Source: Oscillospiraceae bacterium (GTDB lineage Bacteria; Bacillota; Clostridia; Lachnospirales; Lachnospiraceae). From it: a stretch of 64,000 bases of DNA. Every line of letters begins with the position of its first letter. The first letter of the stretch is position 1. Shown here piece after piece: positions 1,188-46,882 of this stretch. The stretch is taken from contig JAETOO010000001.1 of assembly GCA_021771715.1 (NCBI GenBank), positions 1 through 64,000 of the forward strand, written 5' to 3'. The notes under the pieces are model-generated. The model saw nothing but the letters and a program-made list of their open reading frames with translations, was not told where the DNA came from and did no database searches. The position numbers and the translations under genes were made by a program.

Positions 1188-1385
1188 TTACAGGTACGGC
1201 AGGATCTTCTTCATGTTCTGAGCGTTCGTCGGATCTGTGATCGTCGCCTGTCTCAGATTTCTCTTTCTCTTGGTGGACTTCTTGGTTAAGATATGGCTCT
1301 TGTAAGCTTTATTTCTCTTTAATAATCCGGTTCCCGTCTTTTTAAAACGTTTTGCAGCCGCTCTGCTGGTCTTCATTTTTGGCAT
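1188..1385 (-). CDS. rpmI: 50S ribosomal protein L35
   Basis: A 65-residue, strongly basic protein of normal L35 length. It starts [20 protein letters not shown] and has the family's lysine/arginine-rich [11 protein letters not shown] stretch. It is a structural protein of the 50S subunit. It lies between infC and rplT in the conserved three-gene order, with a good Shine-Dalgarno (AAGGAGG) before the ATG. Confidence 0.98.
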
Positions 1386-1423
1386 AGTAAATTCCTCCTT
1401 ATATCTGATTATCTGAAATCACG

Positions 1424-1933
1424 TTATGAACGCTTTTCCATCAAAAACAGGGTGAGGCTTCTGCCTTCCTGCTTGATAGGCTTGTCAATCACTGCCACAT
1501 CCTCGAGTGCCTTCGCAAAATCCTCCAGGATATGACGGCTGGCCTGCATGTGCGCCATCTCACGGCCGCGGAAACGAAGGCTGATCTTTACCTTGTTGCC
1601 CTTGGTGAGAAACTTTCTGGCACTGCTGACCTTGGTATTCAGGTCGTTATCATCAATGTTCGGTGACAGGCGAACCTCTTTAATCTCGATCGTCTTCTGT
1701 TTCTTTCTGGCTTCCTTTTCTTTTCTCGCCAGCTCGTAACGATATTTGCCGTAGTCGATGATCTTGCACACCGGTGGCTTTGCTGTCGGGGCGATCTTCA
1801 CCAGATCAAGTTCCGCTTCACGCGCAAGCTTCATCGCGTCCTTCGCTGACATAATTCCCAGCTGCTCTCCGTTCTCGCCGATTAAGCGGACTTCACGGTC
1901 TCTGATTTGCTCGTTAATCATTAAATCGCTAAT
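1424..1933 (-). CDS. infC: Translation initiation factor IF-3, ATT start
   Basis: IF-3 binds the 30S subunit and proofreads start codon and initiator tRNA choice. The protein (169 residues) has the N-terminal INEQIRDREVRLIGENGEQL segment and the C-terminal KEVRLSPNIDDNDLNTK region of the family. I place the start at ATT (1933-1931). GGAGG at 1943-1947 ends 9 bases before it. The next in-frame ATG is 12 bases further in, too far from that site, and an upstream in-frame ATG at 2047 would put the leader terminator inside the gene. Rare AUU/AUA starts are a known feature of infC and allow IF-3 to limit its own synthesis. First gene of infC-rpmI-rplT. Confidence 0.95.
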   Translation of the reverse strand: MSDLMINEQIRDREVRLIGENGEQLGIMSAKDAMKLAREAELDLVKIAPTAKPPVCKIIDYGKYRYELARKEKEARKKQKTIEIKEVRLSPNIDDNDLNTKVSSARKFLTKGNKVKISLRFRGREMAHMQASRHILEDFAKALEDVAVIDKPIKQEGRSLTLFLMEKRS

Positions 1934-1952
1934 GGTTCTGCACCTCCACACT

Positions 1953-2098
1953 GAAAAAATAAAAGTGGATAACACAGTTATCCACTTCAAATCCTCACAA
2001 ATAAACGCCATCCGACGCCTATGCTCCCGATATGAACCGCTGGTCACCTATCTGTGCCAGGGTGAGAGTGGATACTCTGCTTTCCTGTTAATTACAAC
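1953..2098 (-). promoter_or_regulatory. L20-type leader with transcription attenuator
   Basis: The 5' UTR of infC holds an intrinsic terminator: AAGTGGATAA (1978-1987) pairs with TTATCCACTT (1963-1972), followed by TTATTTTTTC. An upstream segment TATCCACT (2067-2074, minus strand) can pair with the AGTGGATA of the terminator's 5' arm, which gives a competing antiterminator. This layout fits the ribosomal protein L20 leader of Firmicutes, in which L20 favours termination. Its boundaries are estimated from the promoter at 2106-2134. Confidence 0.8.
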
Positions 2099-2105
2099 CT
2101 TTGAT

Positions 2106-2134
2106 AGCATAGCACATGCACGGGGCGTTGTCAA
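2106..2134 (-). promoter_or_regulatory. Promoter of infC-rpmI-rplT
   Basis: Minus-strand TTGACA at 2129-2134, a 17-base spacer, TATGCT at 2106-2111. Transcription would start near 2098, upstream of the attenuator. Confidence 0.85.
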
Positions 2135-2161
2135 CGAATTTTTGCACATATTTGAGCTTAC

Positions 2162-2378
2162 CAGTTCAGCCATGCATGAAAAATGGGAAGACAGGCCGTG
2201 CAAGCTCGCTTGCTAAGGACTGTATTCTCATTTTTGAATGGGCGGAACGCCCATTCAGCCACAGACAGGAGCCGCATAGCGGCGGATAGCTTGCGTAGCA
2301 AGCGGGGCGCTGTGTGCCAGTGGCACACGGTTAGCGCTGACCGAAGCGAAGCGTAGACCTGCGGCTTGCATGGCGTCC
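2162..2378 (-). repeat. Structured intergenic repeat, copy 1 (long form)
   Basis: Same family as 18704-18868 and 46690-46774, in inverted orientation relative to those. It carries the AAAATGGG...CATTTTT outer stem, a GCAAGC/GCTTGC inner stem, the AATGGGCG/CGCCCATT palindrome, the GCTTGC/GCAAGC palindrome, and the terminal CTTGCATGGCGTC segment. Copy 1 has about 50 extra bases (roughly 2308-2357) with their own small palindrome (TGTGCC/GGCACA). It fills the gap between deoB and the infC promoter. Confidence 0.85.
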
Positions 2379-2387
2379 TGTCAATCC

Positions 2388-3578
2388 CTACACCAGCTGC
2401 GCCAGCACGGAGCGGCCCAATGTGCCCTCCGGCATCGGGACGTCGAAGTTGTCCGCAATCGTCGCGCCGACCGCCGCAAAGGTGTCGGACGGCTCCAGGC
2501 GGCCACAACCCTGCATCGACGGGCTGTAGGCGAGGAACGGAACCTTCTCGCGCGTGTGGTCTGTGCCGGTGTGTGTCGGGTCATTGCCGTGATCTGCCGT
2601 GATGATCACGAGGTCGTCCTCGCGCAGCAGCCCCAGCAGCTCTCCGAACTTCTCGTCAAACCGCTCGAGCTCCTCCCCGTAGCCGACCGGATTGCGGCGG
2701 TGGCCCCAGAGCGCATCGAAGTCCACCAGATTCGTAAAGCAAAGTCCGGTGAAATCGCGCTTCGCGATCTCGATCGTCTGCTCCATTCCGTGCACGGAGC
2801 TCTGCGATTTGTTCGACTCGGTCAGCCCCTCGCTGTCAAAAATATCGAAAATCTTGCCGACGGAGATCACGTCATACCCCGCGTCCTTCAGCGCGTTCAA
2901 TGCAGTCCTCCCGAACGGCTTCAGCGCATAGTCGTGGCGGTTCGCCGTGCGCTTGAACTCTCCTTTTTTCTTTCCGACATACGGGCGCGCGATGACGCGT
3001 CCTACCTTCCACTCATCCCGCAGCGTCAGCTCGCGCGCGATCTCACAGCAGCGGTACAGCTCCTTCAGATCGAACGTCTCCTCCTGCCCGCAGATCTGCA
3101 GCACCGAGTCCGCTGAGGTGTAGACGATCATGTGCCCGGTCGCGATCTCCTCCTCGCCGAGCTCCTCGATGATCTCCGTCCCGCTCGCGCTCCGGTTGCC
3201 GATCACCTTGTGCCCGGTGCGCCGCTCCAGCTCGGCGATCAGCTCCGGCGGGAACCCGTGCTCGGTAAAGGTCTGGAACGGCGTCTGTGTGTACAGCCCC
3301 ATCAGCTCCCAGTGCCCCGTCATCGTGTCCTTGCCGGCGCTCTTCTCCTTCATTTCCATATAGTAGCCCAGCGGCCGCTCGACGGACGGCACATGCTGCA
3401 TCGGATGCAGATTCGCCATGCCGACCTTCTGCAGATTCGGGATCTGAAACTGCTCCATGCGCTCCGCAATGTGTCCGAGCGTATCGGTCCCCACATCCCC
3501 GTAGGCAGCCGCATCCTCCGCGGCGCCGATTCCCAGGGAATCAATCACAATCGTAAAAATGCGCTTATATTTTTTCAT
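2388..3578 (-). CDS. deoB: Phosphopentomutase
   Basis: Interconverts (deoxy)ribose 1-phosphate and 5-phosphate, linking nucleoside phosphorolysis to central metabolism. The 396-residue length is typical. Alkaline-phosphatase-superfamily metal motifs are visible: VIDSLGIGA near the N-terminus, GTDTLGH around residue 30, [12 protein letters not shown] and TADHGND near residue 325. It is the last gene of udp-deoC-deoB and is followed by the intergenic repeat instead of an obvious simple terminator. Confidence 0.97.
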
Positions 3579-6998: not shown

Positions 6999-7205
6999 GC
7001 CCTTCCTCCCAAACTGCCACGCACCTTACTTCTGTCCACAGACAGACCTGTTTTCAGACAGTTCCTCTTTTATCTTAGCATATGCAATCTCTTTTTTCTA
7101 TATAATTTTCCCGAAGACAGAGCAGTTGCCAACCGGACGGATTCCAGTTCAAAGCTCTGTCTGAACTGTAACCCGCCCGGCAGGAATTATCCTTTATGCG
7201 CTTTC

Positions 7206-18673: not shown

Positions 18674-18703
18674 TTCCCTCAAATAGAAAGCTAGCGTTCA
18701 GCC

Positions 18704-18868
18704 GACGCCATGCAAGCCGCAGACCCGCTTGCTGCGCAAGCTATCCGCCGCTTTGCGGCTCTTGTCTGCGGCTGAATGGGCGTTCCGCCCATTCAAAAAT
18801 GGTAATACAGCCTTCAGCAAGCAAGCTTGCACAGGCTGTCTTCCCATTTTTTATGCATGGCTGAACTG
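18704..18868 (+). repeat. Structured intergenic repeat, copy 2
   Basis: A 165-base reference copy. Successive palindromes: GCTTGC/GCAAGC, GCCGC/GCGGC, AATGGGCG/CGCCCATT, then a long hairpin from AAAAATGG to CCATTTTT enclosing ACAGCCT/AGGCTGT and GCAAGC/GCTTGC. It ends ATGCATGGCTGAACTG. It lies in the transporter operon between the binding protein and the first permease. Confidence 0.9.
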
Positions 18869-18874
18869 TGACTT

Positions 18875-29960: not shown

Positions 29961-30034
29961 AATAAAACCCTCCCTCTTTTTTTCTATTATACTTGATATC
30001 CGCCGCAAAAGCCATACAAAATCCGGTTTTTCTG

Positions 30035-30083
30035 CCGCATACTCCCTGCGCAGCAAGCGATTCTGCAGCTTGCATGGCGTCCC
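30035..30083 (-). repeat. Partial copy of the structured intergenic repeat
   Basis: Contains GCGCAGCAAGCG and, after a few bases, GCTTGCATGGCGTCC, matching one end of the element at 2162-2378 and 18704-18868. The hairpin half is missing. It lies between the GNAT gene and the nucleotidyltransferase gene. Confidence 0.65.
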
Positions 30084-30108
30084 GGCTGAATCAGAACCAT
30101 TTGACGTC

Positions 30109-46639: not shown

Positions 46640-46689
46640 GCGACCTCTCCATTCCAGGTGTTATTTGTATTATGTTACCGTTCGACCAG

Positions 46690-46774
46690 GACGCCCATTC
46701 AAAAATGGTAATACAGTCCTTAGCAAGCGAGCTTGCACGGACTGTCTTCCCATTTTTTATGCATAGCTGAACTG
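46690..46774 (+). repeat. Structured intergenic repeat, copy 3 (short form)
   Basis: Keeps the GACGCC end joined directly to CCCATTC and then the hairpin half: AAAAATGG to CCATTTTT enclosing ACAGTCC/GGACTGT and GCAAGC/GCTTGC, ending with a GCATAGCTGAACTG segment. Compared with copy 2 the ACAGTCC stem has changed on both sides so that pairing is kept. It lies upstream of addB. Confidence 0.88.
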
Positions 46775-46882
46775 TAACTGCATTATATTTGTTTCTGCAA
46801 AGAAAAGCAATAAATGTTTGAAATGCATCTTCGTTGTGTTATACTTGATCCTATAAAAAACGAACAGAATGGAGTGATCGCA

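Follow-up and report, generated by a model that had tools for sequence, protein, structure and literature searches.

A probable MITE-like repeat family with IS66-type ends in Lachnospiraceae, and a 53-nt double-hairpin element found in its interiors

Copies of the repeat in the window

The window, which is the whole stretch of DNA analysed, comprises the first 64,000 nt of contig JAETOO010000001.1 from a draft genome of the Lachnospiraceae (assembly GCA_021771715.1). A preliminary description placed an interspersed structured repeat of modular palindromic architecture at 2162-2378, 18704-18868 and 46690-46774, with a fragment at 30035-30083. The repeat is present at all four places, and dispersed copies built of hairpin modules are a correct account of it. 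The copies are real, but their ends lie further out, at terminal inverted repeats (TIRs), which places copy 2 at 18690-18872 and copy 3 at 46674-46778.

Copy 1 (2158-2378, forward strand) has as neighbours what we take, from the open reading frames, to be deoB, infC and L20. It is a MITE-like unit with three hairpin modules, hp1, hp2 and hp3, and an insert, m53. The left end is TIR-like with 3 substitutions (2158-2171); a right terminal repeat was sought in this copy and none was found. The long hairpin hp1 (2179-2235) is predicted from the fold and from the covariation of homologous helices, and hp2 (2236-2256), a hairpin of the form GAATGGGCG-GAA-CGCCCATTC, from fold and covariation. The hp3 region, with two sub-hairpins and the right end (2257-2378), is split by m53, as seen from the fold and from the empty form in copy 2. 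The m53 sequence itself is a 53-nt double-hairpin insert at 2307-2359, recognised by covariance model R1 with 73.2 bits (E 3e-19); like the three modules it is read on the forward strand. This separate insert accounts for the greater length of copy 1 relative to copy 2.

Copy 2, on the reverse strand, is a complete hp1+hp2+hp3 unit without m53, and its TIRs are GTCACAGTTCAGCC (18859-18872) and GCTAGCGTTCAGCC (18690-18703, forward strand). Copy 3, also on the reverse strand, is a shorter unit in which the TIRs enclose hp1 only. It is bordered by a target-site duplication, TGTATTAT on the left (46666-46673) and TGCATTAT on the right (46779-46786), the two being identical at 7 of 8 positions. The fragment (30024-30097, forward strand, left limit set by eye) is a decayed 3' part of hp3 with the right TIR, and its right-end sequence is still recognisable at 30070-30097, with 5 substitutions in 28 nt. 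A lone TIR matching at 13 of 14 positions, without a recognised partner or interior, lies at 7159-7172 on the reverse strand.

The stem change noted at the outset, ACAGCCT/AGGCTGT against ACAGTCC/GGACTGT, is correct for copies 2 and 3; in copy 1 the same stem reads ACAGGCC/GGACTGT, with one pair broken. Folding z-scores are -5.6 for copy 1, -8.3 for copy 2 and -4.4 for copy 3. The preliminary description did not recognise ERIC, BOX or REP in these sequences, and the window copies are indeed without an Rfam match at the curated thresholds, the only Rfam matches in the window being two tRNAs. With a loose limit, eight loci of the element gave sub-threshold matches only, mostly to microRNA-type hairpins and also to the T-box and Clostridiales-1.

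Distribution of the family

Further copies, the lack of which would have counted against a family, are dispersed in the window's own genome and in its relatives. With the 217 nt of copy 1 as the query, BLAST of the own genome, a 4.18 Mb draft of 54 contigs, returned 60 matching stretches at E <= 1e-3 (best 9e-110), with 40 of 102 first-look candidates scored. Of the 40 own-genome loci examined with their flanks, 39 contain a BLAST match, including window copies 2 and 3; the sole locus without one is L048, the decayed window fragment near 30 kb. The ends of contigs C8, C17 and C46 of this draft genome (G000) fall within or near the repeat, which has probably caused breaks in the assembly, and copy numbers are therefore lower bounds.

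A consensus search found the family in 20 of 24 congeners and in none of 16 genomes from other families of the order. A pattern scan of a collection of named genomes gave at least 105 stretches; among the 80 matches listed, most are from Lachnospiraceae or from Clostridiales metagenome-assembled genomes, and Candidatus Choladousia (Lachnospiraceae) and Anaerostipes butyraticus are present. There were no matches to the exact degenerate pattern of the element in viral contigs. The repeat is a real family, and it is largely explained as a MITE-like one with ends of the IS66/ISBst12 type.

Terminal repeats, target duplications and interchangeable interiors

The outermost stem of the repeat is a terminal inverted repeat, GTTACAGTTCAGCC in the own genome and GTAACAGTTCAGAACAGC in many relatives. 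The own genome has 157 sites that match it with no more than 2 mismatches, against 15 for the reversed control. Inverted TIR pairs 24-420 bp apart were scanned for in all loci examined to that point. The flanking 8-mers are identical at 7 or more of 8 positions in 40 of 121 distinct pairs, 30 of the 40 being perfect, whereas ten sets of offset or shifted control flanks reach this identity in 0 to 2 of the 121. Since a shift of one base destroys the match, the length of the duplication is 8. The other 81 pairs have flanks matching at 6 of 8 positions or fewer, which may reflect decay, wrong pairing in the scan, or another origin.

What lies between these ends is variable. In the own genome, the same TIRs enclose two bases in the 30-bp units L238 and L240, 21 bp in L239, and an unrelated hairpin module in L247, L253 and L255. 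In other units of this genome they enclose hp1 alone, as in window copy 3, hp3 alone (L250, L256), or hp1+hp2+hp3. Units with a duplication of at least 7 of 8 positions are as short as 36, 38 and 49 bp. In the manner of MITEs, the units are 30-290 bp long, have no transposase gene, are present in high copy number, and have TIRs and a duplication of fixed length. Of the options raised in the preliminary description, it is that of a mobile unit which the terminal inverted repeats and the 8-bp target duplications support. The repeat is quite probably a non-autonomous DNA transposon; it has ends of the GTWAC(A/T)(G/A)TTCAG type and duplicates 8 bp of its target on insertion, and its interior is modular, in that the same ends hold nothing, hp1, hp3, all three hairpins or an unrelated hairpin module.

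Other arrangements were also seen. Another interior, beginning CAGAGAAGGTAGCAGGGCCGTCC, is associated with the same TIR in L241, L246, L247 and L253-L255; its loop houses an additional long hairpin module in L253 and L255. At L094, L095 and L097, in relatives, the full unit is succeeded by a truncated direct repeat that comprises hp1 and half of hp2.

A candidate mobilising transposase

The most likely agent for moving the units in trans is an ISBst12-group transposase of the IS66 family, a candidate for which is present in a congener. This is suggested because the ends are similar and the duplications are of equal length. Elements of the ISBst12 group have ends of the type GTNACNN(Y)TCAG and an 8-bp duplication, as do the window units, the likeness of the ends being one of similarity and not identity. 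For example, the text on ISDge4, a member of this group from Deinococcus, gives ends GTGACTACTCAGCA/GTAACTGCTCAGCA and an 8-bp repeat (PMC12898284). The preliminary description had named a match to a known IS or MITE family as evidence against itself, and such a match exists in part, since both the ends and the length of the duplication agree with those of ISBst12-group IS66 elements.

The candidate, L272, was found by an IS66 (PF03050) search of 25 genomes. It is an IS66-like element of 2267 bp (1217-3484 of its locus) with ends GTTACTATTCAC and a perfect 8-bp duplication, ACTATTTT. Its TIR and those of the repeats are alike over about the first 11 bases and then diverge. The 520-aa ORF matches PF03050 (E 1.9e-10) and scores 140 bits with NF033517, below the cut-off of 180 for that model. 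Like ISBst12 elements, L272 has a single transposase ORF, whereas the units in the window lack the length to encode one; the window units further differ from the ISBst12 insertion sequences and the MITEs derived from them in having a large, covarying multi-hairpin core with interchangeable interiors. The sequence GTTACTRTTCAC is found near three further IS66-like pieces, L278, L279 (the same as L266) and L280. Matches to the L272 protein are present in 5 of 47 genomes of the genus, complete in one and at fragment level only in the own genome, so that the partner is rare now. The better-scoring IS66 elements L258-L262 have no convincing TIR pair of this type, and a search of the loci examined for an autonomous copy, as a long TIR pair with a duplication, gave a single false-looking pair.

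In sum, it is quite probable that the window repeat is a MITE-like transposon with IS66-type mobilisation, in which a modular, covarying interior has been invaded by m53 as a separate element. Complex sequence resembling structured RNA could in this way arise by the nested insertion of tiny hairpins inside a transposon frame.

Covariation of the fold and the question of an RNA

An alignment of 43 units was made from 38 of the 76 de-duplicated slices drawn from the pattern-scan matches listed, chosen for diversity and without m53, and from 5 other units. Most of hp2 and the beginning of hp3 are specified by the scan pattern, so that the invariance of these parts is partly by construction. RNAalifold predicts 50 pairs, 32 of them with changes on both sides, and 95.4% of cells are paired. 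The covariation score is 0.357, against 0.143 in shuffled alignments, none of 500 reaching it, and 0.07-0.11 with slid partners, both controls leaving some relatedness in. The claim that such covariation points to selection on the fold is upheld as to the covariation, which is strong, but an RNA function is not established by it and the orientation of the elements is random.

It is possible that the units are structured-RNA genes or mRNA-borne regulators that have grown repetitive, the fold being kept because the transcript works, for instance in 3' UTRs. The strong covariation is what such units would have, and by eye the purine-rich internal-loop motif is like that of the Clostridiales-1 RNA of Rfam. 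The units also often adjoin stop codons: by hand count, 24 of 72 gene-end neighbours lie within 10 nt of the stop codon, and 3 of 66 lie this close to a start codon. With respect to strand, departures from pairing in the 44 pairs predicted on both strands are G-U in 28 cases and A-C in 15, the consensus fold energy is -60.7 against -40.4 on the opposite strand, and 33 of the 43 units fold more stably as the favoured strand. These tests lean to one strand without settling an RNA role, the mean difference over all 43 units being only -3.3 kcal/mol.

The orientation of 69 elements to their neighbouring genes, with crude ORF calling, is random. The gene to the left is in the same orientation in 36 cases and the opposite in 33, that to the right in 33 and 36, and the four classes are ++20, --20, +-16 and -+13. 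This argues against a function that depends on transcription of one particular strand, and a strand-specific RNA role is not supported by it. The duplications and the swapped interiors are traits of transposons, and the lack of Rfam matches at curated thresholds in the window copies also weighs against an RNA. We therefore regard an RNA origin as rather unlikely and prefer the MITE-like transposon. Within such a transposon, pairing is kept while the sequence changes, probably by arm-to-arm correction of the DNA mixed with selection on the fold. Correction of the arms of palindromes against each other in replication could keep complementarity without a transcript, and caution is warranted in that covariation alone does not prove RNA function.

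Structure and distribution of m53

The m53 fold consists of a five-pair stem bearing an apical hairpin, followed by GACCGA, a mini-hairpin and AGACC. Over 26 distinct copies, selected from a larger list, the covariation score is 0.477 against 0.191 shuffled (0 of 500 as high); in two of the five measures, double-change pairs and further pair types, the observed value was reached by 27 and 37 of the 500 shuffles. The 55-nt copies were misaligned in the apical hairpin within this test, and 24 of the 26 copies are fully paired there once these are aligned by hand.

It is m53 that a specialist would find surprising. It can interrupt a tRNA gene and lengthen a protein in frame, and of 200 genomes sampled from the family 93 contain it (93 of 199 genera). 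Within the genus, 43 of 47 genomes have m53, in as many as 117 copies, and across the class 28 of 391 genomes have it, 9 from the same family and 19 from nine other families. Of these 19, three have weak scores (about E 2e-4), and such weak hits are the only ones in two of the nine families. All of these counts are from covariance model R1 and include the own genome; copy numbers are minima where few candidates were scored.

The exact degenerate pattern of m53 has no matches in viral contigs. A blastn search with one m53 query found none in 72,556 plasmids and one in 50,697 phage records, this being an unverified 7.7-kb faecal scaffold, so carriage by phages or plasmids is unlikely to be its main route. 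No description of m53 was found in searches of open-licence papers, sequence strings included.

Sites occupied by m53

Within the repeat family, m53 is found in both arms of hp1, at the tip of hp2 and in hp3. It is also inserted into the apical hairpin of m53 itself, with three or more levels of nesting in L045. In the Clostridiales-1 RNA it is present in L232, L233 (twice) and L235, and it is found in further repeats as well. Two repeats resembling the 3' half of tRNA-Pro in L349 (G241) each have two tandem m53 between the anticodon arm and the T arm.

Three single-copy genes, each in a draft genome and each representing one event, also contain m53. At 710-762 of L330 it interrupts a tRNA-Glu(ctc) gene, by eye in the T-loop, and ARAGORN reports the tRNA only when the flanks are joined. 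At 1501-1553 of L315 it cuts an integrase gene of the Tn916 type (PF00589, PF02920) and is not in frame; the part upstream of m53 can be aligned with Int of PDB 6en0/6emy as far as ..QYIMGH, and the sequence beyond the insert encodes HADIGVTMNVYNHI in a different frame. In L316, a gene for a TfoX-like protein (1407-1763, PF04993) contains m53 in frame, coding for 18 residues, VLRASGTRLAPTGAERRP, that in an alignment replace one alanine of three homologues (59, 37 and 37% identical). The Pfam match is no longer when the m53 residues are removed (39.3 versus 38.2 bits, both to profile position 58), which is uninformative, and it is the alignment with homologues that decides the case. This protein has no PDB match at E <= 1. 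As the net gain is 51 bases, or 17 codons, m53 can also pass as a protein insert.

Junctions and mobility of m53

Of 174 hits, 146 were usable for the analysis of junctions, giving 98 distinct junctions in 26 clusters, from each of which one representative was taken. A G precedes m53 in all 26 representatives and a C comes after the core in 21; the core measures 51 nt in 23 of them and 52 nt in the other 3. In a stricter grouping of 103 distinct hits into 45 site groups, the preceding G is found in 44, the exception being a tandem copy.

Where empty copies of the same element are known, reading by eye indicates that the 53 nt replace two host bases. This is so in the 3' part of hp1 (GC), in hp2 (CC), in hp3 (TC), at the tip of m53 itself (GC) and in L128/L197 (AC). 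A two-base replacement is also indicated in L316 (GC), L315 (NC) and L330 (AT), given empty forms inferred from homologues or from the general tRNA pattern in other genomes. Exceptions to the rule are L170/L150/L187/L140 and L145/L147, in which the terminal CC is missing. No target duplication was seen at the junctions examined. The flanks of m53 pair slightly better than swapped flanks (-13.9 vs -11.8 kcal/mol, p 0.0055), a modest preference for folded targets.

These observations suggest that m53 is a separate 53-nt double-hairpin micro-element which invades the interiors of the larger repeat. At most sites with a known or inferrable empty form, it lies 3' of a G and replaces two host bases without a duplication, and it is found outside these repeats as well, in the tRNA and protein genes, one case each. 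Our best guess is that an enzyme acting in trans recognises the m53 hairpins and joins m53 3' of a G. On balance, and with some reservation, we favour the view that m53 is an undescribed family of 53-nt transposable hairpins, spread across the class (apparently Clostridia), with two covarying hairpins and no coding capacity, that inserts 3' of a G in exchange for two bases and prefers folded targets, among them other mobile repeats, the tip of m53 itself, structured RNA elements and a tRNA T-loop. If true, m53 would be among the smallest known self-propagating DNA elements of bacteria and would imply a novel enzyme or an RNA-based route.

An alternative is that m53 is not mobile and is instead a domain that repeats have in common through recombination, as BOX elements have boxB, the cases in genes being accidents. 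Most of the m53 sites examined do lie inside other repeats, and in G041 all 11 copies, in 10 loci, are at one position of one element type, which indicates that m53 is also copied along with its host repeat. Sharing by recombination would nevertheless have to account for 26 distinct clusters of sites, the representative of each being preceded by G, for several different positions in a single parent, the tip of m53 itself among them, and for clean hits in tRNA, integrase and TfoX genes. In G531, moreover, two unlike hosts contain one m53 sequence, and a third contains a variant that differs from it by one base of the core. A shared, immobile domain is improbable, and insertion of m53 as an element of its own is preferred.

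Y1 transposases were also considered as the mover of m53. Matches to PF01797 are present in 25 of 47 genomes of the genus, and the number of m53 copies has a weak correlation with them (rho 0.27, p 0.067; with genome size, rho 0.64), while 8 genomes with 29-98 copies, all drafts, show no Y1 match. The hairpin anatomy, the position of m53 3' of a fixed base without duplication and the Y1 matches in the genus would fit REP-like palindromes that such a transposase (IS200/IS605 or RAYT) moves in single-stranded form, both for the large units and for m53. Against this stand the weak correlation and the TIRs and 8-bp duplication of the large units, which Y1 elements do not make. The duplication refutes the proposal for the large units, and as a whole it is very unlikely.

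Comparison with known systems

The window repeats resemble the REP/BIME and RAYT system in being interspersed modular palindromes, but differ in having TIRs and an 8-bp duplication, and no Y1 dependence was seen for m53. Among small palindromic elements, those of Rickettsia are described in PMC10969869, in the text available, as about 150 bp long and inserted in frame in genes. By description, m53 is similar as a palindromic micro-insert that keeps the reading frame of a protein gene, in the one case of TfoX, but its length is about one third of theirs, its net addition is 17 codons, and most of the copies seen lie inside other structured repeats. The GC clusters of yeast mitochondria and double-hairpin elements are presented in PMC4478555 as tiny GC-rich hairpins that merge and shuffle, the yeast clusters being flanked by the short repeats AG or ACT. 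The clusters are similar in size to m53, whereas m53 is bacterial-chromosomal and without a duplication.

The window element also resembles the Clostridiales-1 RNA (RF01699), which the excerpt of its original table available to us lists as probably an RNA, from Clostridiales and the human gut (PMC2864571); the portion seen of an RNA discovery paper, PMC8040213, contains nothing specific on the element. By eye, the two have in common an outer stem, a long first hairpin and a GGAG-hairpin-CGGA internal loop, and Clostridiales-1 is likewise present in high copy number in the same genomes and invaded by m53. Matches to it were found in 24 of 25 genomes of the genus and 1 of 16 others, and over the cut-off in 23 of 41, with up to 48 matches per genome (52 candidates scored) and none in 14 control genomes. 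At the RF01699 threshold of 48 bits the window has no match; eight element loci yielded a single hit, in L088, which scores 20.1 bits and lies a short way downstream of the element. The element of the window is not a member of the Clostridiales-1 family, in the few copies of which that were inspected by eye no such ends or duplication were seen; a common origin of the two is possible. In L234 and L236 (G008), the hp2-like part of Clostridiales-1 elements contains a different two-hairpin insert, possibly a second family of micro-elements.
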